This document shows, one piece after another, positions 23,665 to 35,050 of a stretch of 64,000 nucleotides of DNA. Both the position numbers and the translations under genes were made by a program. The stretch spans positions 3,968,001-4,032,000 of the forward strand of contig NZ_OY734020.1 of NCBI RefSeq assembly GCF_963455295.1, in the 5' to 3' direction. The notes under the pieces are model-generated. The model did no database searches. It had not been told where the DNA came from and saw nothing but the letters and a program-made list of their open reading frames with translations. The DNA comes from Candidatus Thiodiazotropha sp. CDECU1. GTDB lineage: Bacteria; Pseudomonadota; Gammaproteobacteria; Chromatiales; Chromatiaceae. Numbering within the stretch: position 1 is the stretch's first letter; each line of letters begins with the position of its first letter.

Positions 23665-24057
23665 TTAAAATGTGAGCAGCTGTCCACCTTCTGCATCGCT
23701 CAGGAAACGGGTCAGTCCGGTCGCCGGCCCAAGCACCGGATCGAGCGCCTCTTCAGAAACCTTCAATAAATCAAGCGCCATCGAACAGGGTAATAGTTTT
23801 GCATCGCCCAATTCCGCCGCACTTTGAAACAGCTGTTTAAACGGCGGCACTCCCGCCTCGTTTTCCATCAGTTCGCCAAACCGACCCTCCACCGGAACCT
23901 TGTGTGTCGAATCCTTGATGAAAAAGGGCAGGGCATTCATTGAAAAGAACACCGTAACCTGGTCACCTGTGGCAGCCGCCACCGAAGCGAACATCGCGGC
24001 CATCTGCAACTTCTCGCGGGTTCCGCTCAAGCAAACGATATGGTAACTTTCGGGCAT
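23665..24057 (-). CDS. DsrE-family sulfur carrier protein
   Basis: The 130-residue protein starts at ATG 24057 after GAGGTACAGATT; the frame is open upstream to 24087. The sequence has the DsrE/DsrF-like fold (YHIVCLSGTREKLQMAAMFASVAAATGDQVTVFFSMNALPFF) and a cysteine in LLPCSMALDLL at the position used for sulfur transfer in DsrE-type proteins. It is followed by TusA and the Sqr-like gene, so it probably relays sulfane sulfur in the cytoplasm. It lies directly after an orphan IS3-type orfA. Confidence 0.87.
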   Translation of the reverse strand: MPESYHIVCLSGTREKLQMAAMFASVAAATGDQVTVFFSMNALPFFIKDSTHKVPVEGRFGELMENEAGVPPFKQLFQSAAELGDAKLLPCSMALDLLKVSEEALDPVLGPATGLTRFLSDAEGGQLLTF

Positions 24058-24080
24058 AATCTGTACCTCATCAATTCCAT

Positions 24081-24350
24081 TCACCACTTCTTCGACACCA
24101 CTCTCTTTAACGCTTGATTACGTAATGTGAGATCGGCAACAAGGGAGCGCAGACGCTGATTCTCCTCCTCAAGCTGCTTCAATCGTTTCGAATCATTGGC
24201 TGATTGATCTGCATATTTCGTCCGCCATTTATAAAATGTTGCATCAGAGATACCATGCCTGCTACATAGTGCAGTTATCTTCTCACCTGACTCCTCGGCC
24301 TCCTTCAAAATCGCCATGATCTGCTCTTCGGTGAAACGTAATCTGCTCAT
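24081..24350 (-). CDS. IS3-family transposase OrfA without OrfB
   Basis: The 89-residue protein starts at ATG 24350 after GAGGTAAAAGTG. It shows the helix-turn-helix of IS3/IS407-type OrfA (RFTEEQIMAILKEAEESGEKI, CSRHGISDATFYKWRTKY) followed by a leucine-rich coiled coil (KRLKQLEEENQRLRSLVADL) and ends in the usual SKKW. The partner orfB with the DDE catalytic domain is absent: dsrE starts 24 bases further on. I found no terminal inverted repeats. It is a relic at the join between the thiocyanate/ABC genes and the dsrE-tusA-Sqr group, although the reading frame itself is intact. Confidence 0.88.
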   Translation of the reverse strand: MSRLRFTEEQIMAILKEAEESGEKITALCSRHGISDATFYKWRTKYADQSANDSKRLKQLEEENQRLRSLVADLTLRNQALKRVVSKKW

Positions 24351-24439
24351 CACTTTTACCTCGCGTCCATACCAGCACACGACAAATACTAATCATCAAG
24401 CGTTTCAGGTTGAATCAACGCAGTAAAAGCCACTAGATA

Positions 24440-25288
24440 TCATTCATCTCCACGATGCCAACTGAAACGTTTGATTAACAAAACACAGGAGCTATCGAGG
24501 ACGTAGCCGATAACGCCTATGATGAGAACCCAAGCCATGAGATGGTCATATGAGAGACCCTCACGGGCATCCTGAATCGAGTAGCCTAGACCTGAAGTCA
24601 CGCCGAGAAATTCCGCAGGGACAATTACGATCCATGCCACACCAAGCGCAAGACGTATTCCGGTAAGCACATCGAACGTGATCGCCGGTACGATAATCCG
24701 GGTTACGATATGCCAGGGTTTGGCGCCTAGATTTCGCGCTACCTTGAACCACGCAGGGTCCACCTTGGCCAGGCCTGCCGCAGTCGCGAATGCCACCGGC
24801 CACACCGATGCGATCGCTATAAGAAAGATTATCGCCTGATTCCAGGTGGCGAATACGATAACCGCGATCGGCTCCCATGACAGCGGACTGATCATGCGCA
24901 GCAACTGAAATGGCGAATTACTCAACTCGCGGAATCTTCTACTGCGTCCCATTAATATACCGATAGGCACACCGATGCAGATGGCGATCAGCAAACCGCT
25001 ACCCAGACGGTAGCCACTGGAGAGTATCGCGCTTTGTATGGTTCCCTCCTCCCACAATACCGGCATCGCCTTTAACGCCGGTATCGGTCCGAAATCGGCA
25101 AAGTGTTCGGTGGAGGGATTGGAGGAGATAAGAAAGATACCAAACCACCAGATAACAAACAGTATCGCGATACCGATAAAAAAATTCGACAGCCCCCGCC
25201 ATGAAGACTTCAAAACACGCGATGACATGGATTCGCCAGCCCCGGCGTTCAGCACATTCACCCTGATTGGCGCAGTGTCATTGCTCAT
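24440..25288 (-). CDS. ABC transporter permease, nitrate/taurine type (copy 2 of a tandem pair)
   Basis: The 282-residue permease has about six membrane helices and the BPD transporter signature region (EFLGVTSGLGYSIQDAREGLS). It is closely related along its full length to the gene just upstream (25359-26186); PFQLLRMISPL and AKVDPAWFKVARNLGAKP are shared exactly. Together the two may form a heterodimeric channel for the Tat-exported binding protein and the ATPase of this operon. Thiocyanate, or a related small anion such as cyanate, is the likely cargo given the hydrolase genes upstream. Confidence 0.9.
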   Translation of the reverse strand: MSNDTAPIRVNVLNAGAGESMSSRVLKSSWRGLSNFFIGIAILFVIWWFGIFLISSNPSTEHFADFGPIPALKAMPVLWEEGTIQSAILSSGYRLGSGLLIAICIGVPIGILMGRSRRFRELSNSPFQLLRMISPLSWEPIAVIVFATWNQAIIFLIAIASVWPVAFATAAGLAKVDPAWFKVARNLGAKPWHIVTRIIVPAITFDVLTGIRLALGVAWIVIVPAEFLGVTSGLGYSIQDAREGLSYDHLMAWVLIIGVIGYVLDSSCVLLIKRFSWHRGDE

Positions 25289-25358
25289 TGTCTTGCAACC
25301 TCTCGATCAGGGACGATCAGGGAGGACAGCCGCACATGCAATTTTCTTATCCCATCAA

Positions 25359-26186
25359 TCACGACTCACCTCTATGCCAGCTGAATCGATTGATCAGCAG
25401 TACGCAGGCACTATCAAGCAAGTACCCAATAGCCCCAATAACCAATACGATTGCGGTGAGGTGGTGATAAGAGAGGGTTTCTCTGGCATCTTCTATGGAG
25501 TAACCAAGACCTGAGGTCACGCCTAAATACTCCGCCGGCACAAGTACTATCCAGGCTACCCCCAATGCCAGCCGGATACCCGTAAAGACATCAAAGCTGA
25601 TCGCCGGCAGAATAATCTTGGTCAGTAGATGTATGGGTTTGGCACCCAGGTTGCGGGCCACCTTGAACCAGGCCGGATCCACTTTCGCCAAACCAGCTGC
25701 CGTTGCAAAGGCCACCGGCCAGAGGGATGCGATCGCAATAAGGAAGATGATCGATTGGTTCCAGGTGGCGAATACCACCACTGCGAGTGGCATCCACGCC
25801 AAAGGACTGATCATACGTAACAGTTGAAACGGTGAATTGCTGATCTCACGGAAGCGTTTGCTGCGCCCCATGAGGATACCAACCGGTACTCCGATACAGA
25901 TCGCAATGAGCAGTCCAATACCCAAACGATAGCCACTGGCGGCCATCGCATTCTGAATCGTCCCCGCGGACCATAACTCTGGGAATGCCTTGAAGGTGGG
26001 GATTGGTCCAAAGGCGGCGAAGTGTTCCGTGGATGGATTGGTGGCAATGAAGTAGCCGCCAATCCACCACAAGGTAAATAGAACCGCCAACCCACCGAAG
26101 AAATTTGTCAAACCACGCCCTGATGATTTCAGGGCGCGGTAGGACCTGGATTCGCCGACCTTGAAAGATGCGGCATCTCCACTCAC
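25359..26186 (-). CDS. ABC transporter permease, nitrate/taurine type (copy 1 of a tandem pair)
   Basis: The 275-residue inner-membrane permease belongs to the NitT/TauT family. It includes GLLIAICIGVPVGILMGRS, the coupling-loop region AEYLGVTSGLGYSIEDARE and six predicted helices. Its ATG overlaps the stop of the substrate-binding protein gene by 4 bases. A second, very similar permease follows 70 bases downstream, which points to tandem duplication. Confidence 0.92.
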   Translation of the reverse strand: MSGDAASFKVGESRSYRALKSSGRGLTNFFGGLAVLFTLWWIGGYFIATNPSTEHFAAFGPIPTFKAFPELWSAGTIQNAMAASGYRLGIGLLIAICIGVPVGILMGRSKRFREISNSPFQLLRMISPLAWMPLAVVVFATWNQSIIFLIAIASLWPVAFATAAGLAKVDPAWFKVARNLGAKPIHLLTKIILPAISFDVFTGIRLALGVAWIVLVPAEYLGVTSGLGYSIEDARETLSYHHLTAIVLVIGAIGYLLDSACVLLINRFSWHRGES

Positions 26187-27475
26187 AGTTCAACCACCTC
26201 AACTCTGGAGTAGGGGTCGCCGGTCTTGGGCACGCTGGGATCGTTTTTCCACTTTGGATTCGCTTCCAAGGCATTCTTGACAAAGGTGTAGTTAACCAGG
26301 TCGTCAGCCACATGCTGCGGTGTGAGATTATCGAGGAACCCGGCATCTCCTGTTAGCACGGTCTCTTTCAGATCGGAGACAACAAGCTCAGTGGCTGAGC
26401 GATAGGGCCAGCTTTGGAAGTTGATTCTATCCATACCCCACTCCGGATGTTTGATAGCTACCGGATTGTTGTAGTAGGCGGGATCGTAGAACAGCATTGC
26501 CCGCTCGATGATCTTCTTCGGGAACGGCAGATATTTCTTTCCATCGCGAGAGAGCAGCTGCGCCATCTCCTGTCTGTTCTCTCCGAGATGAATCTGTGCG
26601 GCGATGATTGCATTGTGCACACCCTGTGCCCATGCCGCCCGATCCGGATCCATCGCGTCCGCCTCATGCATAACCACCACACAGCAGGGATGTCCCTTCC
26701 AGACATCACCGGTGAATCGCAGCACCTTGCCACCTGCCTTGATCTCGCCAAGGGCATTGAACGGCTCGGCCACGCAGTAACCGTCAATCGACTTGGCTGC
26801 AAGCGCGGGTGGCATATCGGGTGGATTCAACACCAGGAAGTTACATTCATTGGGACCCAGCTTGGCGGTTTGCGGCCGTATCACTGGGGTTATACCCGCC
26901 TCCTTCATGATCTTCTGGGAAACGATATTATGAATCGAGTACCAGTAAGGTACGGCAAACTGCTTACCCCCAAAATCCTTGGGCGAGTTGATTCCACTGT
27001 CCTTGTGAACGATGATCGCGGAACCATTGGTGTGATCCCAGGCAGTTATCTTCAACGGATACTTGTTGTTGTAACGCATCCAGATCGGGATCGGGATAAG
27101 CATGTGGGTCAGGTTGAATCGATGTGAGGCAAAGGCCTCCACCAGGGGTGACCAACCACGGATCAGGGTTGGGCGAACCGATTCGATCCCCTCTTTTTTG
27201 AAAAAGCCCAACTCATGGGCGACCAGCAGAGCCGCAGCATCGGTGATCGGTATATATCCGATACGCACCACCGGATCCCACTTCTTCTCCTGGGCGAACG
27301 TTGCCGCAGAGGGTATCAGGCTGCTCATCGCCGCAAGACTACCCATCTTCAGAAAATCGCGCCTGTCGACGCCACTACCCAAGACATTCTTGAAAAGCGG
27401 ATCATAATCCAAGACAAGTTCTGGATCGTCAATACCATCTCCATACTTATCGACTATCTGCTTAGACTTATTCAT
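26183..27475 (-). CDS. Tat-exported ABC substrate-binding protein, NitT/TauT (NrtA-like)
   Basis: The 430-residue protein has an unusually long n-region (37 residues) before a Tat motif (DRRDFLK at 37-43) and hydrophobic stretch (MGSLAAMSSLIPSAATFA). The mature part follows the NrtA/SsuA-like pattern (VRIGYIPITDAAALLVAHELGFFKKEGIESV). It should bind a small anion in the periplasm for the two permeases downstream and the ATPase upstream. A good GGAGG site precedes ATG 27475. The specificity for thiocyanate is inferred from the linked hydrolase operon. Confidence 0.9.
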   Translation of the reverse strand: MNKSKQIVDKYGDGIDDPELVLDYDPLFKNVLGSGVDRRDFLKMGSLAAMSSLIPSAATFAQEKKWDPVVRIGYIPITDAAALLVAHELGFFKKEGIESVRPTLIRGWSPLVEAFASHRFNLTHMLIPIPIWMRYNNKYPLKITAWDHTNGSAIIVHKDSGINSPKDFGGKQFAVPYWYSIHNIVSQKIMKEAGITPVIRPQTAKLGPNECNFLVLNPPDMPPALAAKSIDGYCVAEPFNALGEIKAGGKVLRFTGDVWKGHPCCVVVMHEADAMDPDRAAWAQGVHNAIIAAQIHLGENRQEMAQLLSRDGKKYLPFPKKIIERAMLFYDPAYYNNPVAIKHPEWGMDRINFQSWPYRSATELVVSDLKETVLTGDAGFLDNLTPQHVADDLVNYTFVKNALEANPKWKNDPSVPKTGDPYSRVEVVEL

Positions 27476-27522
27476 CTTCGGTATCCTCCGTTAGGTAATC
27501 GGATATTCCGACTTATGTAGGG

Positions 27523-28350
27523 TCAGGCGTGCTGCGTGACGCTATGTGGACTGGAATCATCGCCAGCATCCTTGCTGGAGGAGTTCGGGTATTCGTTGGC
27601 GGCACTTTTAAAGGCTTCCATCAGGCGTGCGCGCATCGCCTGTACAGCCGGATCCTGCCTTTCTCGCGGGTCGGGGAGATTGACTTCTAGCTCGTCGTAG
27701 ATCTTGCCGGGAGAACCTGCCATGATCAGCGCCCGATCAGCCATCAATACCGCTTCATCGATATCGTGGGTAACAATCACAACGTTGAAACCGAGGCGTT
27801 TGGCAATGGATCGAACATCCTTTTGTAAGGATGAACGGGTGAAGGCATCGAGTGCGGAGAAGGGTTCGTCCAGCAACAATAATTCAGGCTCCATCACCAG
27901 CGAGCGTGCGAGTGCAACCCGTTGTTGCTGACCGCCCGACAGATCCTGGACGTTGTTGTCGGCGTAATCCTGAAGATCGACCAAACTGAGTGATTCATCG
28001 ACCCGTTCACGCATTCGCATATCATCCCAGCCAGCAAAATGGAGGCCGATACCGACATTTTGCGAAACCTTCATCCAGGGAAAAAGATGGGGCGCCTGAA
28101 ACATCATGACCCATTGCGGCGAAGGCGCTGTCACCAGGGTATCATCAAGACGAACGGAACCATCCGTCGGTTTCAACAGGCCTGCCAGAATATGCAACAG
28201 GGTTGATTTACCACAACCGGAGCGCCCGATTATAGCGAGTATCTCGCCCTGCCTCGCTTCCAGATTAACCTTGTCAAAAGTGATAGGGCTTTTCGAGGTG
28301 TAGCGATGGCTAAGCTCCTCTATCTTGATGCGAACTCCGCGTATAGACAT
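27523..28350 (-). CDS. ABC transporter ATP-binding protein, nitrate/taurine type
   Basis: The 275-residue ATPase has a Walker A motif GRSGCGKST, the Q-loop region VMMFQAPHLFPWM, the signature LSGGQQQRVALARSL and Walker B LLLLDEPFSALD, followed by the H-loop VIVTHDIDEAV. It energises the permease pair. A ribosome site AGAGGAT precedes ATG 28350. The gap to the activator gene upstream is 86 bases, so it probably shares its transcript with the scn genes. Confidence 0.93.
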   Translation of the reverse strand: MSIRGVRIKIEELSHRYTSKSPITFDKVNLEARQGEILAIIGRSGCGKSTLLHILAGLLKPTDGSVRLDDTLVTAPSPQWVMMFQAPHLFPWMKVSQNVGIGLHFAGWDDMRMRERVDESLSLVDLQDYADNNVQDLSGGQQQRVALARSLVMEPELLLLDEPFSALDAFTRSSLQKDVRSIAKRLGFNVVIVTHDIDEAVLMADRALIMAGSPGKIYDELEVNLPDPRERQDPAVQAMRARLMEAFKSAANEYPNSSSKDAGDDSSPHSVTQHA

Positions 28351-28436: not shown

Positions 28437-28892
28437 TCAGGCGCTGTTCAGACGTCGCTCAACCTCTTCCATACGGTGCTCCAATTCATCCTCATCAAAT
28501 AATCCACGTCGGATCAAGGTATGGGCCAGTGCCAATAACTGACTTTCAGGGAACGGCACTTCGGTATAGTGCTCATTGACCAGTTGATCCTCTTCCCAAC
28601 GGCGCTCCACAGCATCGAGTTTTTTCTGCTCCTCTTGCGGATTACGATCATGCTTGGGTTTACAGACGTTGAAGGTCTCCCAATAACCGCCGGAGAGCAT
28701 ATCGCAGGTCGCTTCCAGGGTGATCCGCCAGGGAGGGTCCGGGTTGTCCACGCCATACTGTTCACACAGGTCATCCCAGACTCTTCCTTTTCTTTTAACC
28801 TCTTCCAAAAGTGAAACAGGTGATGAGCCATCGAGTTGGCGATCGCGCATCTCTTTATCGAGTTCGAAATATTTAGGATTTATCTCAGCCAT
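28437..28892 (-). CDS. Thiocyanate hydrolase activator, P15K-like
   Basis: The 151-residue protein lies 8 bases after scnC. Its sequence (VWDDLCEQYGVDNPDPPWRITLEATCDMLSGGYWETFN) resembles the N-terminal part of nitrile hydratase beta-type subunits. In Thiobacillus thioparus a small protein called P15K, encoded beside scnBAC, is needed for active, cobalt-loaded thiocyanate hydrolase. Size and position match that role. The C-terminal third is rich in acidic residues and may be a coiled coil. The assignment rests on context and a modest sequence resemblance. Confidence 0.75.
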   Translation of the reverse strand: MAEINPKYFELDKEMRDRQLDGSSPVSLLEEVKRKGRVWDDLCEQYGVDNPDPPWRITLEATCDMLSGGYWETFNVCKPKHDRNPQEEQKKLDAVERRWEEDQLVNEHYTEVPFPESQLLALAHTLIRRGLFDEDELEHRMEEVERRLNSA

Positions 28893-28900
28893 GGGATTTC

Positions 28901-29596
28901 CTAATGACCATATGGATTGACTGCGGGACGTATTGGACGCGGGTCATTGGCAGTCTTACCGGGTTTTGGCAGGGCTACACCGATCAAACAGTCCCGGGTT
29001 ACGATCTCGGCCAACTGATCTTCGCTCCATCCCTCGGTCCCTTCGGGGCGAACCGGTAGAACAATGAAACGTGATTTCTGATTCGAGTCCTCCACCCTGA
29101 CCTCTACTTCATCGGGCAGTTGCAAGCCAAACTCCGCAAGTACCTGACGTGGCCAGCGCACCAGACGACGTCGATAGTTGGGTGTCCGATACCATTCAGG
29201 CGACTGCCCGAGAATGGGACGCGGGTAACATGAACAGAGTGTGCATACGACCACGTGTTTTAAGGTTGGCGTATCCTCGAGCACACGTAGATTGCAGTAG
29301 TCACTGGGGGTGCCAAAATGAGATGGCATACTGTTGACCCAATCAATCCCCACATCGAGGCTGGCCTTGACGCCATCCTCTATACAAAGCTTCTTGTATT
29401 CCGGGTCCAACCAAGCCTTTGCCACCATACGTGCCGCGGGAAGAGGACCAAGGGTATGCATATACTCGGTCCAACTTTGGTGGTCTTCAGCGCTGAACAG
29501 GCCTTTCTCGATCGCCAGTTCACGAACGGCGATTTCGAGCACCTCGAACTCGCTGACCTCATCGACCATTGGTGCAGGTTTGTGTTTCTCCGCCAT
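28901..29596 (-). CDS. scnC: Thiocyanate hydrolase gamma subunit (cobalt site)
   Basis: The 231-residue protein is the catalytic subunit. The cobalt-binding motif VCTLCSC is at residues 117-123, with C118, C121 and C123 as ligands. In the enzyme family two of these cysteines become oxidised to sulfinic and sulfenic acid. The Thr after the first cysteine marks the cobalt rather than the iron type. The rest (KPAPMVDEVSEFEVLEIAVR, FGTPSDYCNLRVL, YPRPILGQSPEWYRTPNYR) matches ScnC of Thiobacillus thioparus closely, with 10 fewer residues before the motif. The enzyme hydrolyses thiocyanate to carbonyl sulfide and ammonia. A ribosome site AGAGGATAAG precedes ATG 29596. Confidence 0.96.
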   Translation of the reverse strand: MAEKHKPAPMVDEVSEFEVLEIAVRELAIEKGLFSAEDHQSWTEYMHTLGPLPAARMVAKAWLDPEYKKLCIEDGVKASLDVGIDWVNSMPSHFGTPSDYCNLRVLEDTPTLKHVVVCTLCSCYPRPILGQSPEWYRTPNYRRRLVRWPRQVLAEFGLQLPDEVEVRVEDSNQKSRFIVLPVRPEGTEGWSEDQLAEIVTRDCLIGVALPKPGKTANDPRPIRPAVNPYGH

Positions 29597-29655: not shown

Positions 29656-30024
29656 CTACAGTGGTTCAAGCCAACGCTCAGGCAGTTCGGTCTCAACCGT
29701 GTCGCTTGAGAATGCATCGGGATAGTCCGGCCAAAGATCCGTTTGCTTGAAAACAAGGCTGTAAAACCAGACGACTTTATCCGTGTTGTCCCACGCCTCA
29801 TCTTCCGGCGCAGGGCTTTCATAGACCAGTTCGGCAACAGTTGCAGGCGCGCCACGTGTATAGACTTGCGTACGGGTATAAAAAATATCCGGTAGATCCT
29901 TGACCCGTACCTTGTCACCCACCTTGAACTTGGGTTTACCCGCTTCGCTCTTAAAACATTGTGGATCACCGACGTTTGTCGCCTTCTTTACGTGATGCTC
30001 TCGATCATAATGTGGTTTACTCAT
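29656..30024 (-). CDS. scnA: Thiocyanate hydrolase alpha subunit
   Basis: The 122-residue protein corresponds to the C-terminal half of a nitrile hydratase beta subunit. It has KFKVGDKVRVKDLPDIFYTRTQVYTRGA and ends ELPERWLEPL, a pattern shared with ScnA. Its start overlaps the scnB stop by 8 bases. The order scnB-scnA-scnC is the same as in Thiobacillus thioparus. The protein forms the structural scaffold with ScnB around the cobalt subunit. Confidence 0.94.
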   Translation of the reverse strand: MSKPHYDREHHVKKATNVGDPQCFKSEAGKPKFKVGDKVRVKDLPDIFYTRTQVYTRGAPATVAELVYESPAPEDEAWDNTDKVVWFYSLVFKQTDLWPDYPDAFSSDTVETELPERWLEPL

Positions 30025-30448
30025 AGCGTTTTCTGACCTCGTCTATCTTGTCGGATAACTCGGTGACTGTGATGTATTGCTTGTCAACCAGAATTCTTGC
30101 AGCGGTCAGTAACCAACGACCGTAATAGGGCAGCCCCAAATAAGCTGTCTGTCCTACATCCACATTCTGTCTGCGACGCCGCTCCTCGGCGTTCCAGACA
30201 CCGCGCCATGCCAGTACCTCGCAAGTGACGAAGGTATTGTGCTCCCACACCTCTTCCTCCTTCTCTTCCCATGTAATCGGGACATCAGGTTCACCGCCGA
30301 CATCATGTGCCATACGTGTATAGGCCCTATAGTGTTCGTTATCCACCTGATCTGGAGATGGCGCGTGGGTTTCCTGATGCAGAGACGGCTGGAGTTGTTT
30401 AACGATCTCCAGGTGTTTCATCACTTTTCGTCTGATGGTTGATGACAT
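30017..30448 (-). CDS. scnB: Thiocyanate hydrolase beta subunit
   Basis: The 143-residue protein matches the N-terminal half of nitrile hydratase beta subunits and ScnB (MAHDVGGEPDVPITWEEKEEEVWEHNTFVTCEVLAWRGVW, split over two blocks). It is the first gene of the scn operon. AGAGGA lies 11 bases before ATG 30448, slightly far; a second in-frame ATG at 30424 lacks a site. The promoter is about 180 bases upstream, inside the module at 30631-30698. Confidence 0.92.
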   Translation of the reverse strand: MSSTIRRKVMKHLEIVKQLQPSLHQETHAPSPDQVDNEHYRAYTRMAHDVGGEPDVPITWEEKEEEVWEHNTFVTCEVLAWRGVWNAEERRRRQNVDVGQTAYLGLPYYGRWLLTAARILVDKQYITVTELSDKIDEVRKRYE

Positions 30449-30866
30449 AGTTGCGTAAACTCCTCTATTAGGTTTTTAATTAAGCATACCTTTATTTACC
30501 TAATGTCTTTTTTTCTCATATAAATATTTGGTACTTCAGTAAACAATGATGCGTGGCTTTACCACATGCAAAATAGTTTCTTAAGTAATGCTTAAATTAC
30601 CAAGCACTCGCCTATCTATCGTGTTAAATCAAACTATTTACCAGGTCACAATATTTGTCCAAGACCTAATTCTGATTAGCTCTATAGGCGATGACTATGA
30701 AGTGAGATACTTGACTAACGGTTTTACATACAATTGCTAATTTAAAGCCTTAGAAATATTTTTTTTACGAAATACACTTCCAAATTCAGTTATTGGTCTA
30801 CACTAAGTCTCACCATGGTGGAATAAGGGATATCCGCTTTTTTTATAACTTCCATAGGGGTTAGCT
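30449..30866. other. Divergent regulatory region between scnB and the cynR-like gene
   Basis: This 418-base AT-rich gap contains the scn promoter module (30631-30698), a predicted untranslated leader of about 180 bases for scnB, and about 170 bases before the regulator gene. No coding frame or small RNA could be supported. Confidence 0.6.
30631..30698 (-). promoter_or_regulatory. scn operon promoter module with LysR-type operator
   Basis: Read on the minus strand, the module has an ATA-N9-TAT palindrome (plus-strand ATAGGCGATGACTAT, 30684-30698), then TTGGAC (30662-30657) and, after 16 bases, TAAATA (30640-30635). The palindrome centre lies about 31 bases upstream of the -35 centre, near -64, the usual LysR activation site. 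The whole 68 bp recurs without gaps at 34983-35050 (58 identical), before the CbiM-like gene. ATA-N9-TAT is the pattern bound by NAC-type LysR proteins. Confidence 0.75.
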
Positions 30867-31850
30867 ATGGATAGAAATATCATGTGTCCCCGTTCACTAC
30901 GCTATCTTTTAGCTGTTGCTGAACATCACAGCTTTACCCGAGCGGCCGAAACACTATTTGTGTCACAGCCCACTCTCTCCCAGCAAATCAAGCAGTTGGA
31001 AGAGTCTCTTGAGACCCAGTTGTTGGATCGTTCAGGCCGTAATGTGCACCTTACTGACGCGGGGGAGGTTTATATCAGTTATGCCCGCCGAGCCCTTGGT
31101 GAACTGGACGCCGGAAAGCGGGCCATACAGGAACTTCAGGACCTGAGCAGAGGCTCACTCAGCCTGGGCATGACTCCCATCACGGACTATCTTGCCGCCC
31201 CTTTAATAGATAAATTCAATAAACGCTTTCCCGGCATATCCGTAGGCACCTACGAAATGCCACAGGATGATATTGAAAGCGGCATCTTGTCTGGGAACAT
31301 AGATATTGGTATTGCGTTTACCAATACCCTTACCGTTGCAGCTAACTATGAATACATAGAGACACAACACCTGTTCATGGAACCACTCAATATGGCAGTA
31401 GGGTCAACCCACCAATATGCCGGCATGGAGACTCCTTTGGGACAGCACTCTTTCGAACAGGAGCCGCTGGCACTCCTGAATAGCGACTTCGCATTACGCA
31501 GACACATCGATCTCTATTGTCTGGAACACGACATTAAGCCGCAGATCGCAATCGAAACAAACTCCCTGAGCACAATAATAGAGGTTCTCCGACTGGGACG
31601 GCTTGCCACCATTCTTCCCAACACAATCGCGTGTCAGCAAACCGAGATATTTCCAGTAATGCTGATTCCAGAGCTACCTCACCATACAATCACACTCATC
31701 AGCAGACAGGACTCATATAAGAGCCCTGCATCACTTGCATTCAAGGAACTGGCGGCTGAATGGGGCACAGACGGTTGTCACGATACACCCGTTAAGCGCA
31801 CAGGCCCCTGTCCCATGTCAGAAGTCTGCGTACCCAACGCACACAACTGA
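30867..31850 (+). CDS. CynR-like LysR-family activator
   Basis: The 327-residue protein closely follows the CynR pattern: YLLAVAEHHSFTRAAETLFVSQPTLSQQIKQLEESL for the helix-turn-helix, then LLDRSGRNVHLTDAGEVY, and in the effector domain IDIGIAFTNTL and EVLRLGRLATILPN. E. coli CynR controls the cyanate operon. It is divergent from scnB and convergent with the GlcF-like gene. AGGGG precedes ATG 30867. Both flanking minus-strand operons carry the same LysR-type box, so it is the natural candidate activator of both, with thiocyanate, cyanate or a breakdown product as inducer. The last 30 residues extend beyond the usual LysR domain. Confidence 0.88.
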   Translation: MDRNIMCPRSLRYLLAVAEHHSFTRAAETLFVSQPTLSQQIKQLEESLETQLLDRSGRNVHLTDAGEVYISYARRALGELDAGKRAIQELQDLSRGSLSLGMTPITDYLAAPLIDKFNKRFPGISVGTYEMPQDDIESGILSGNIDIGIAFTNTLTVAANYEYIETQHLFMEPLNMAVGSTHQYAGMETPLGQHSFEQEPLALLNSDFALRRHIDLYCLEHDIKPQIAIETNSLSTIIEVLRLGRLATILPNTIACQQTEIFPVMLIPELPHHTITLISRQDSYKSPASLAFKELAAEWGTDGCHDTPVKRTGPCPMSEVCVPNAHN

Positions 31851-31908
31851 TTATTGACACAAACCTAACCAGTGATCTGAAACAGGCCTACAGCATTACC
31901 TGCGTCTA

Positions 31909-33210
31909 CTATCCGGCCTCACTTTGAATATCATTCAAAGATGACGGTATCGGCCCTCCTGTCACCCAGTCCAGCAATTCCACTGTATGTACTACTGGAA
32001 TCCTGGAGCTCGACATCAGGTGCATCATGCAGCCAATATTGCCTGCAGCAACAGCCGAGGGCGACCCCGCTTCAAGCGCTTTTAATTTATTCTCTTTCAG
32101 GCGTGTGGAGATCTCTGGCTGTAATAGATTGTAGGTCCCGGCAGCACCACAACAGGTATGCGAGTCCCGTGGCTCAAGCACCGTGAAGCCCGCCGTTTTC
32201 AGTAACCGCCTGGGTGTAAACCTCACTCGTTGTCCAAATTGCAATGAGCAGGTTGCATGGTAGGAAATTCGTAATCCCGGCTTGACCCTATAGTCCAACT
32301 CCATCTCTGAAAGCAGTTCGGTAACATCCTTGGCCAGTCCTGCGATTGTCTCTGCCTGTGATGCCAGCGAGTGATTACGGAACATATATCCATAGTCCTT
32401 AATGACCGTACCACAACCGCTGGTATTGATCACAATCGCATCCAGACCATCACCATCGATCTCGCTCATCCAGGCGCGTATATTCTTCGCCGCCGCCATC
32501 AGACTCTCTTTTGACTTACCCATATGATGGGTAACGGCGCCGCAACACCCGGCGCCTTGCGCGACAACAACCTCACAGCCATGCCGACAGAGAATCCGAA
32601 TCGTTGCGTCGTTGATATCTGTGTTCAATGCTCGTTGCGCACATCCTGTCAACAATGCCACGCGACGCTTACGTTCGCCCTTTGCGGGAAATACTTGAGG
32701 TTCATCGTTGGGGCTGGGTGGTGGCAACCTATCTGGTGTGTACTCCACCATGCCACGAATCGGATTTGGCAGCATCGATGCTGCCGGCTTTAGGATTTTT
32801 GCCGTTTGCATCGCCAGGCGAAAGCGATTCGGATAGGGCAGCAGCTTTGCCAACAACCAGCGTGACAACCGATCCAGCGGTTTTCGCTGGTGCCTCAGTT
32901 CAATACTCTCCCGGGCATGATCCAGCAGGTGCTGATAGTGCACACTGGATGGACAGGTGGACATGCAGGCAAGGCAGGAGAGACATCGATCGATGTAATC
33001 CACTGTCTTCTGCAGCGGTTTGCCCTCGCTTTCTAGTAGTTCCTTGATCAAATAGACGCGTCCACGGGAACTGTCATACTCATCACCCAATAACTTATAA
33101 GTGGGACAGTTTGGCGTGCAATAGTCGCATTGCAGGCACGCGCGCAACTCCACTTCTGAACTTGCGATGGCAGGTAGTGTCAGCTGCTGTTGGTTAAAAT
33201 TGGTTTGCAT
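31909..33210 (-). CDS. GlcF-like iron-sulfur protein (glycolate oxidase subunit family)
   Basis: The 433-residue protein has two N-terminal [4Fe-4S] motifs (CLQCDYCTPNCPTY and CLSCLACMSTCPSSV) and two CCG cysteine-rich domains (GCAQRALN...GAGCCGAVTHH and ATCSLQFGQ...HTCCGAAGTYN). This is the GlcF layout, related to heterodisulfide reductase HdrD. GlcF normally acts with GlcD and GlcE, but neither is in the window: the regulator gene converges on its end. It is the last gene of the CbiM-like operon and lies 34 bases after the methyltransferase. It may serve glycolate oxidation with distant partners or another 2-electron thiol/hydroxy-acid reaction. Confidence 0.85.
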   Translation of the reverse strand: MQTNFNQQQLTLPAIASSEVELRACLQCDYCTPNCPTYKLLGDEYDSSRGRVYLIKELLESEGKPLQKTVDYIDRCLSCLACMSTCPSSVHYQHLLDHARESIELRHQRKPLDRLSRWLLAKLLPYPNRFRLAMQTAKILKPAASMLPNPIRGMVEYTPDRLPPPSPNDEPQVFPAKGERKRRVALLTGCAQRALNTDINDATIRILCRHGCEVVVAQGAGCCGAVTHHMGKSKESLMAAAKNIRAWMSEIDGDGLDAIVINTSGCGTVIKDYGYMFRNHSLASQAETIAGLAKDVTELLSEMELDYRVKPGLRISYHATCSLQFGQRVRFTPRRLLKTAGFTVLEPRDSHTCCGAAGTYNLLQPEISTRLKENKLKALEAGSPSAVAAGNIGCMMHLMSSSRIPVVHTVELLDWVTGGPIPSSLNDIQSEAG

Positions 33211-33244
33211 AGGCCCTCCGCTTAAGGAAGTACTGTCAATTCAC

Positions 33245-34066
33245 TCATGCGCGACCCAGGAGATATGTGTAGTAGTTGCATGCTGCAAAGAAGGTTTCAG
33301 ACTCCATTGCCTGTTGCTGCACAGACAACCAATGCTCGACTTCACCAGCTGTCATCAGACCGGAGCTCGAGACATAGGGGGCATAGGTTTCCGCAAACGA
33401 CTTGAAATAGCTTGCCTTCCCGATCTCCACCACAGCATCCCCCCATGCGGTTTTGAGTTGCAGTCCGATATCAGCCAACATCCCTGGCAACTCACGCATA
33501 ATCCTGGGATTACAGAAAGATGCATTGGCAAGAGCGCTATCCATTTGACAGCCGAAATCGTAATCCGGAAAGGCATAGGTCAAGGATGAATAGTCACCGT
33601 CGAAGATGACCACAGTTCCACCAGACTTAACCACTCTTGCCATCTCTTCGAGCACACGCACCGGGTCGGTAACATGGCTTATCAGGGTATTTGCTATAAC
33701 GGTATCAAAACCTGCAGATGGAAATTCAAGATGATGTGCATCACCGGTTCGAAATTCCAACCTTTCATCGATAAACTCTTGTTGAGCCAATGCTTTGGCC
33801 GCCTTGATGAACGGAATACTTTGATCAACCCCAACCGCACTGCCTGTAAACTCTTCCCGGCGCACCAAGGAGCGAATCATCGCACCAGTACCACAACCCA
33901 CCTCCAGTACCTGAGCGGGATTGGCACGCAACAACTGGGATGAATATTTCTCGATGAGATTGGTAAACACACCGTCCTTTGCACGGCTTTCCAGACGGGT
34001 TATCAGGCGATCGATTGCCTCATCATCGAGATCATTGACGAATCTGTGTGGGTCTCGCGCGGCCAT
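33245..34066 (-). CDS. Class I SAM-dependent methyltransferase
   Basis: The 273-residue protein has a SAM-binding motif I (VLEVGCGTGAMIRSLV), an acidic motif (VGVDQSIPFIKAAK), FRTGDAHHLEFPSAGFDTVIAN and a post-motif region (RVLEEMARVVKSGGTVVIFDGD), typical of UbiE/Methyltransf_11 enzymes. The substrate is unknown. It lies in the same minus-strand group as the CbiM-like permease and the GlcF-like gene, under the duplicated promoter module. Sulfur nucleophiles such as thiocyanate or sulfide are conceivable substrates, but nothing in the sequence proves it. Confidence 0.85.
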   Translation of the reverse strand: MAARDPHRFVNDLDDEAIDRLITRLESRAKDGVFTNLIEKYSSQLLRANPAQVLEVGCGTGAMIRSLVRREEFTGSAVGVDQSIPFIKAAKALAQQEFIDERLEFRTGDAHHLEFPSAGFDTVIANTLISHVTDPVRVLEEMARVVKSGGTVVIFDGDYSSLTYAFPDYDFGCQMDSALANASFCNPRIMRELPGMLADIGLQLKTAWGDAVVEIGKASYFKSFAETYAPYVSSSGLMTAGEVEHWLSVQQQAMESETFFAACNYYTYLLGRA

Positions 34067-34168
34067 TTCACAGACTACCTACAATCTCACTTACACCAAA
34101 AACATTCCAATCCAACTACCAGGTGAAAAACCTGAGACCTCTTCCTGGTAGAGGTCTCAGTTCACCAT

Positions 34169-34849
34169 TTAGGCAGCCGCTCGATAGAGACGAGAATGAA
34201 AAAGTCTGTTGTCCTTGAGTTGATGCAGGTTTTTTGCTGTTGCAAGAATAGCAAGATCCAGTAGTGGCTCTATTAAAATAACTGTCATATAAGCAACACT
34301 GAATGTACCTACCTGAACAAGATTTTCCGCACCGAATCCATTCCCATAGAATGCCCAGAATGCCACCCAAGCGACAACCCCACCCTGATAGGCTGTGGAG
34401 AGCGCGAGTGCCTGCGCATATTTAACATCTTTATACGCAGTCTTCGCTGGGATCAGGCGGCGCGCCAACGCATCAACAACCAGCAGCGGCACTAACAGAG
34501 AGGTTACATTCATACCATATTGCGGCAGGTCCGCAGGTGCAAATAGTAGCCCTTGAGCAAGCAATCCCATAGCCAGGCCAATTGCTGCTGGACCTGCGCC
34601 AAAGATTAGAAACAGCGTAGCGCCAAGAATAAAGTGTACCTCGGATACACCTACCGGATAGTGCGGTAATACTTGAAAAAAGCAGAACACGAGTAGTGTC
34701 GTGATTGCGCTGCGCATCGCCAGTATAGTGACACTGTTTTGTTTAATTGTACTCAACGTGAGTTTGGCCGCATATCCAATTGCGCCTGCAGCCGTCACAA
34801 CGCCAAGTGCCATTTTTGCGCCCTCAACAATGCCTGGTTCAATATGCAT
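34169..34849 (-). CDS. CbiM-family cobalt/nickel permease component
   Basis: The 226-residue membrane protein begins MHIEPGIVEGAK. CbiM/NikM proteins bind the metal through the N-terminal amine and His2, and both are kept here. A further histidine is in GVSEVHFILGATLFLIFGAGPAAIG, which corresponds to the second metal-binding block. About six to seven helices are predicted. No CbiN, CbiQ or CbiO partner is nearby, so it may work alone or with shared energising subunits. Given the cobalt-dependent thiocyanate hydrolase and the shared promoter module, cobalt is the likely metal. A GGAGAGGGG site precedes ATG 34849. Confidence 0.82.
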   Translation of the reverse strand: MHIEPGIVEGAKMALGVVTAAGAIGYAAKLTLSTIKQNSVTILAMRSAITTLLVFCFFQVLPHYPVGVSEVHFILGATLFLIFGAGPAAIGLAMGLLAQGLLFAPADLPQYGMNVTSLLVPLLVVDALARRLIPAKTAYKDVKYAQALALSTAYQGGVVAWVAFWAFYGNGFGAENLVQVGTFSVAYMTVILIEPLLDLAILATAKNLHQLKDNRLFHSRLYRAAA

Positions 34850-34982
34850 CTGTACCCCCTCTCCTCATACTTGTGGATCAACTGTTGAAACGATATTTAG
34901 CAACCTCCAGCCTGTTGCGACATGCTTGCAATGAAATACTGACGCCGTCTCGCACAAACCTCGAGATAGCTACCATTAGATT

Positions 34983-35050
34983 AAACTATTTACCAGGCAC
35001 CACTATTTGTCCAAGACCTAAACCTGATCAACTCTATAGGGGATGTCTAT
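34983..35050 (-). promoter_or_regulatory. Second copy of the LysR-type promoter module, upstream of the CbiM-like gene
   Basis: This segment aligns to 30631-30698 over 68 bases with 10 differences and no gaps. It keeps the ATA-N9-TAT box (35036-35050), the TTGGAC -35 (35014-35009) and the TAAATA -10. Only 187 bases separate the box from the CbiM-like start. The unconserved bases fall mostly between the elements. Confidence 0.75.

Follow-up and report, generated by a model that had tools for sequence, protein, structure and literature searches.

Gene content of the locus

The window analysed here, a stretch of 64,000 nucleotides from Candidatus Thiodiazotropha sp. CDECU1 (contig NZ_OY734020.1, positions 3,968,001 to 4,032,000), carries genes for a thiocyanate hydrolase and for a predicted cobalt permease. 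Each gene set is preceded by one copy of a 68-bp module, and a gene for a CynR-type regulator lies between the copies. The hydrolase genes are located on the minus strand: scnB at 30017-30448 (N-terminal half of the nitrile hydratase (NHase) beta subunit; PF21006, 67.4 bits), scnA at 29656-30024 (C-terminal half; PF02211, 68.5 bits) and scnC, coding for the gamma subunit, at 28901-29596 (TIGR03887, 389 bits with a cut-off of 291). Two genes for NHase-beta halves and an scnC above the TIGR03887 cut-off, in this order, identified the enzyme as a thiocyanate hydrolase. The names scnA and scnB are assumed here from gene position, and the scnC product is presumably the cobalt-binding subunit. The eight best matches among scnC loci, with 91-94% identity, stem from five Candidatus Thiodiazotropha and three symbionts of the clam Ctena orbiculata.

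The regulator gene cynR (30867-31850, plus strand) encodes a LysR-type protein of the CynR family, the candidate reader of the three sites described below. The second unit is again on the minus strand. It starts with cbiM for a predicted CbiM-type cobalt permease (34169-34849; PF01891, 67 bits, cut-off 23.1), which lacks a CbiQ partner, and continues with a second gene for an S-adenosylmethionine-dependent methyltransferase (33245-34066; PF13847/PF08241) and a third for a GlcF-like Fe-S (CCG) protein (31909-33210; NCBIfam GlcF, 412 bits, cut-off 333).

A repeated operator-promoter module

Module S (30631-30698) ends 182 nt before the start of scnB and module M (34983-35050) 133 nt before that of cbiM, both on the minus strand. 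Recomputation of the alignment reproduced the 58 of 68 identities without gaps given in the initial annotation. The homology has sharp ends; in the 70 bases adjoining each side of the two copies, identity is 29%. The next-best ungapped match to the first copy on either strand of the window had 35 of 68 identities, and a BLAST search of the whole 4.46-Mb genome with the module retrieved the second copy with an E of 5.8e-16 and a sole other match with an E of 3.2. These comparisons, together with the ranking of both sites in the profile search below, ruled out a chance repeat.

The ATA-N9-TAT box and TTGGAC stand in the same register in both copies, as had been noted before. The -10 element had to be reassigned. 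TAAATA, the original proposal, is seen in the window's genus; the hexamer conserved across lineages is YATAGT, two bases later at module positions 61-66 and 18 nt after TTGGAC, and reads AATAGT in the window. The consensus is ATAG-N7-CTAT, AT(C/A)R-N-AA, GTCTTGGA(C), 18 bases and YATAGT. In module S the dyad IR1 covers 30684-30698 (ATAGTCATCGCCTAT), a second half-site lies at about 30662-30676, and the -35 and -10 elements are at 30657-30662 and 30633-30638. The corresponding positions in module M are 35036-35050 for the dyad, 35009-35014 for the -35 and 34985-34990 for the -10 element. Transcription is predicted to start near 30625 from module S and near 34977 from module M. Judged by its sequence, the 68-bp repeat is a LysR-type operator of the CynR kind joined to a sigma-70-like promoter.

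Both modules of the initial annotation thus stood; a third copy of the dyad had been overlooked. It is located at 30854-30868 on the minus strand (ATAGCTAACCCCTAT), overlaps the start codon of cynR and is not accompanied by conserved -35 and -10 elements. A riboswitch or another structured RNA was rejected as an identity of the repeat: at gathering score no Rfam riboswitch was found in the window or in seven related loci with CbiM, HupE, CbtA or NicO, the window gave no Rfam match of any kind, and the seven loci gave only tRNA and signal recognition particle RNA.

Occurrence of the module in scnC loci

We compiled the best 80 of 377 scnC loci, taken from named genomes, and added the window, giving 81 loci. 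Both 68-mers were scanned over the 80 loci, and the resulting matrix was refined on these and the window (threshold 17.9). It detected 195 sites in 77 of the 81 loci; 152 sites in 67 loci scored at least 40. The four loci without a site (L026, L030, L036 and L092) are contigs that start within the cluster or fewer than 200 bases ahead of scnB. As a control, reversed loci gave one chance match above threshold with a score of 19.4, the next best being 12.6, and 8.7 million simulated positions yielded a single match with a score of 18.1.

Candidate target genes were identified by tblastn in the 81 loci and their families named by Pfam, and those with a site at most 600 bases upstream were counted. 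The search proposed in the initial annotation, for the module before cbiM-like genes in scn genomes, found it upstream of 28 of 28 CbiM genes. Sites also preceded HupE (5 of 6), CbtA (4 of 27) and NicO (1 of 5). A transporter of one of these four families is present in 64 of the 81 loci, in 38 of them with a site directly upstream. Of all the arguments for cobalt supply as the link, this exchange of importers under a constant operator is the strongest.

The predicted regulon is neither compact, as first proposed, nor local: in some lineages porin, GlcF-like Fe-S protein, FNT channel and cyanase genes carry a site as well. The counts were 23 of 37 for CCG/GlcF-like genes, 10 of 13 for the porin, 3 of 4 for FNT, 5 of 52 for CynS and 1 of 1 for DUF4198. 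The Thiobacillus thioparus locus L049 has sites in front of scnB, cbiM and a CCG gene. The porin, an outer-membrane protein of about 460-560 residues with an Alginate_exp match below cut-off, was met repeatedly behind the module (L018:1908, L130, L141, L142, L144-L147, L166 and L167). Nine further genomes have a porin of the same kind, assigned partly by eye, behind a site, in four (L144-L147) separated from the scn site by 12-16 kb and in five on other contigs (L130, L141, L142, L166, L167). FNT-family channels with the module upstream occur in L043, L054 and L064; a role as an anion channel for thiocyanate or cyanate is possible. Among 41 matrix sites without a named target, three have no open reading frame (ORF) in reach, and several singletons, among them L024:7140, L041:1242, L045:7698, L081:1375 and L083:16992, could not be assigned.

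Profile searches of whole genomes

For genome-wide searches we built a profile from 65 sites of 40 loci; the window and L014-L023, which belong to the window's genus, were excluded. In the 4.46-Mb window genome module S ranked first with an E of 1.5e-13 and module M second with 8.9e-10. The next match, at E 0.04, was the start-codon dyad 30854-30868, followed by one elsewhere at 0.046. Among 22 genomes of the genus, sites (E<=1e-5), cbiM (E<=1e-10) and scnC were all found in the same 11, and with these cut-offs all three were missing from the other 11.

In a class sample of 369 genomes, to which stricter filters were applied, the profile matched in 10 (E 1e-4) and scnC was detected in 10 (E 1e-60), and these were the same 10. 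Five of them (G000, G010, G214, G414 and G429) had contributed no sequence to the profile, with the site of G214 resembling that of L034, which had. Under independent draws such a coincidence has a chance probability of about 9e-20, a value that merely indicates strength because the genomes are related. In 40 of 46 genomes reached via scnC loci the profile detected between one and five sites (E<=1e-3). The proposal of a module common to thiocyanate hydrolase and cobalt uptake gains support in a broader form: the module precedes scnB and four transporter families in different lineages and tracks scnC across genomes, being weaker or missing in 6 of the 46.

Several matches beyond those counted with the porin could be assigned. 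The scnB sites of L025 and L039 reappeared as L134 and L137, those of G414 and G214 as L169 and L170, and L135 and L136 are probably scnB sites on broken contigs. In L143 a cbiM with a site (score 51.4) lies on a contig separate from scn. Because the partner contig L093 begins within the methyltransferase gene, this is probably an assembly break and not an unlinked copy. The site of L128 (E 4.2e-13) is at a contig end with its gene out of view.

Other matches were less readily placed. Two divergent sites in L133 precede a CCG gene and an ORF that by eye resembles the gene following scnC. In L129 and L140 the sites look genuine, but the genes behind them show no clear link. The same applies to a clear site of T. 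thioparus DSM 505 away from the scn cluster (L138:4761, G115:C18:81763; E 5.4e-7), and an unfamiliar protein family follows a module-like site in two genomes (L129:950, G010:C27, and L022:20208). Weak profile matches were obtained in L131, L139, L148, L149 and L150 (E 1.4e-4 to 0.003); L132 contained no matrix site. By eye, TonB-receptor-like genes follow the weak sites L139:4496 of T. thioparus DSM 505 (E 7.7e-4) and L150:999 (E 9.2e-4), which may reflect chance or metal uptake.

The regulator and its likely operators

The window regulator scored 367 bits against the NCBIfam CynR equivalog (cut-off 277). It shares 130 of 298 residues with E. coli CynR, 42 of 59 in the helix-turn-helix domain, including the stretch VSQPxLSQQI. 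Applied to 5 kb of E. coli sequence, the matrix gave a score of 26.1 in the cynR-cynT gap, the next best being -3.4. This match begins with ATAAGTAAA, which is the R1 site of CynR as quoted from footprints in PMC5002191, where the operator centres are given as -66, -44 and -34. In the module the dyad is centred on position 8 and the second half-site on about position 30, i.e. 22 bp apart. With the predicted start, the module therefore has the CynR geometry, in which a 15-bp dyad around -66 is followed 22 bp closer to the start by a second site, and the LysR-type site of the initial annotation acquires a published counterpart.

We then examined 68 cynR genes with at least 45% identity and their start in view, using the first 24 motif columns. 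A score of at least 10 was found near the start in 65 of the 68, compared with 362 of 2.9 million positions elsewhere, true sites included. In 56 of the 68 the dyad overlaps the start codon at one and the same offset, though the matrix had itself been shaped by many of these sites. The window dyad at 30854-30868 scored 27.8 over 24 columns and 14.7 over the full module. Such a start-codon dyad is likely to be an autorepression site.

A regulator other than the neighbouring CynR-like protein might read the sites. Some loci, e.g. L024, lack cynR in the fetched flank, and T-N11-A dyads are a general feature of LysR-type regulators. Yet most cynR genes carry the dyad on their own start codon, in keeping with autoregulation, the matrix recognises the E. 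coli CynR site, and the recognition domain shares its VSQPxLSQQI stretch with E. coli CynR. We regard another reader as very improbable; the CynR-like protein, already suspected in the initial annotation, is the candidate to which its own dyad and the E. coli operator match point.

Origin of the two copies

The placement of the module differs between lineages. Loci of the Thiobacillus type have one module on the cynR start, which would drive cbiM or HupE in its place, and another copy that would drive scnB. Several gammaproteobacterial loci have just one module; it lies on the cynR start and would drive scnB. The window's genus seems to have kept the start-codon dyad with a decayed promoter, full modules being located before scnB and cbiM.

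The two copies might be alike merely through recent copying of a promoter, without the second being kept for common control. The homology is sharply bounded, and copying did happen in L023 (1895-2347 and 8496-9184), where 74 bases are identical between the copies, a 234-column alignment of module and leader gives 78% identity, and a decayed cynR fragment lies upstream of the cbiM-side copy. L023 may thus be an intermediate, or fossil, of a promoter duplication. The region before cbiM gave no comparable fragment in the window, L015, L018 and L020. On the other hand, within-genome copies in nine chosen Thiobacillus-type loci agree at 46% in the spacer, 83% in the dyad and 100% at the -35 element, and a site precedes every CbiM gene of the locus set and unrelated transporters elsewhere. 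Pure recent copying was therefore rejected as insufficient, given spacer and -35 values; it is part of the history, as L023 illustrates, and highly unlikely to be the whole of it.

The CbiM permease and neighbouring genes

The CbiM protein exceeds the PF01891 cut-off and has the N-terminal Met-His, Met1-His2 of CbiM being a metal ligand. MHIEPG and SEVH are invariant in 30 aligned sequences; the NCBIfam CbiM models match the window protein far below their cut-off. A complete CbiMNQO transporter of the energy-coupling factor type was excluded, as none of the 11 scnC-positive genus genomes contains CbiQ. Because CbiQ is lacking, the prediction of cobalt transport rests on the family and the conserved MHIEPG.

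The window genome has a second CbiM (G000:C1:4376754-4377431; L168:8758-9432) that is 73% identical and shows no module match. By eye, it stands in a row with a nitrate/cyanate-like ABC importer, a CobW-like GTPase, and WD40-like and CynS-like proteins, a cyanase-type operon that would carry a cobalt permease.

Downstream of scnC, all on the minus strand, a conserved gene at 28437-28892 occupies the same place in most scnC loci viewed. It has no Pfam or NCBIfam match; from its position we take it to fit a P15K-type activator. Next are four genes of an ABC transporter of the NitT/TauT kind (24440-28350), with the same gene order in most scnC loci viewed: an ATPase (27523-28350, PF00005), a binding protein (26183-27475, PF13379) and two permeases named by eye (25359-26186 and 24440-25288). 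This transporter probably imports thiocyanate or a related anion. A transposase-OrfA-like ORF (24081-24380, by eye) lies between the second permease gene and a conserved ORF at 23665-24087, where the scn cluster ends.

Discussion

The repeat, its conservation and geometry, its co-occurrence with scnC and its position before unrelated cobalt/nickel transporters are best explained, in our opinion, by a 68-bp unit for the CynR-family activator encoded between the copies, which would co-induce the enzyme and its cobalt supply. We consider this explanation very probable; it predicts binding of the protein, the inducer, the direction of control, the extent of the transcripts and cobalt as the cargo. 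One regulator dimer would occupy the strong dyad centred around -66 and a second one the half-site beside the -35 element. Upon binding of an inducer, most likely thiocyanate and possibly cyanate, RNA polymerase would be recruited to TTGGAC-N18-AATAGT. Module S would turn on scnBAC, the small gene following scnC and the ABC importer, and module M cbiM, the methyltransferase and the GlcF-like gene. Thus a substrate signal would raise enzyme and cobalt supply jointly, while the regulator would repress itself via the third dyad over the cynR start codon.

The regulator may instead answer to cyanate, with thiocyanate hydrolase as a member of a cyanate response, a reading that overlaps with the co-induction just described. 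It is in keeping with membership in the CynR family and with 52 CynS genes in the fetched loci, five of which have their own site. SCN- treatment raised cynT in E. coli, and the authors leave open whether this was caused by cyanate contamination (PMC12096828). On the other hand, the profile match coincides with scnC in 10 of 10 class-sample genomes, and the product of thiocyanate hydrolase is described as carbonyl sulfide, not cyanate (PMC5328954). We consider cyanate as the signal rather unlikely.

A number of points weigh against thiocyanate-driven co-induction of hydrolase and cobalt import, beginning with the inducer, which could be cyanate. The counts of sites, target genes and cynR-start dyads are not independent because the matrix was refined on the same loci; independent of it are the whole-genome profile ranking, the genus survey and half of the class-sample matches. 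Furthermore, the genomes compared are related, and the profile is tuned to scn-type sites, with E. coli alone representing genomes that have CynR and cyanase only. Six of the 46 scnC genomes (L035, L052, L070, L074, L079 and L087) had no profile match at E 1e-3 and just weak matrix sites with best scores of 24.0-34.5. The -10 element varies between lineages, and some sites precede genes without an obvious role. Of the transporter genes, 23 of 27 CbtA and 4 of 5 NicO lack a site of their own. Of these, 18 of the 23 CbtA and 3 of the 4 NicO genes lie downstream of scnC on the scn strand and may share the scnB transcript. Five CbtA genes (L080, L082, L084-L086) are on the strand opposite to scn, as is the NicO gene of L043. 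Finally, CbiQ (PF02361) is absent from all 11 scnC-positive genus genomes, that of the window included, and present in 3 of the 22, all without scnC, and the second CbiM of the window genome has no site.

The arrangement resembles the E. coli CynR-cynTSX system in its 15-bp dyad around -66, the second site 22 bp nearer to the start and the adjoining divergent regulator gene. It differs in that the E. coli targets are carbonic anhydrase, cyanase and a cyanate transporter, whereas the predicted targets in the window are thiocyanate hydrolase and cobalt uptake from separate promoters, and in that the window dyad covers the regulator start codon while the E. coli dyad is about 10 bases off. Rhodococcus has the cobalt transporter NhlF beside its cobalt nitrile hydratase, likewise a cobalt importer next to a cobalt enzyme of the NHase family. 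In the window the link is the repeated operator and not neighbourhood alone. In T. thioparus and Thioalkalivibrio thiocyanodenitrificans a cobalt uptake gene, a methylase and cyanase adjoin the scn genes as well, with cobalt uptake systems that differ between species (2017, PMC5328954); this account gives the gene context and names no promoter, operator or regulator of the cluster. In one open-access library, with subscription papers outside its range, neither a shared operator nor control of thiocyanate hydrolase by CynR was found to be described. Cobalt genes beside scn are thus known; what appears to be new is a CynR-type regulon that would extend to a cobalt enzyme and the supply of its metal.

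Control of metal importers is mostly ascribed to metal sensors or B12 riboswitches. We lean, by a modest degree, towards the view that here a substrate-sensing regulator and not a metal sensor commands the importer, that the operator is fixed while importers of at least four unrelated families (CbiM, HupE/UreJ, CbtA and NicO) have replaced one another beneath it, and that the sites define a complete thiocyanate programme which also takes in the GlcF-like Fe-S protein and, as candidates for thiocyanate entry, the porin and the FNT channel. The profile is available for finding further members of the regulon, and the entry candidates are now named in bacteria relevant to the treatment of mine waste. 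The locus offers a direct test case for how cells supply metal to a demanding enzyme: the cobalt enzyme's substrate apparently commands cobalt import, and this wiring appears to outlive the importer itself.

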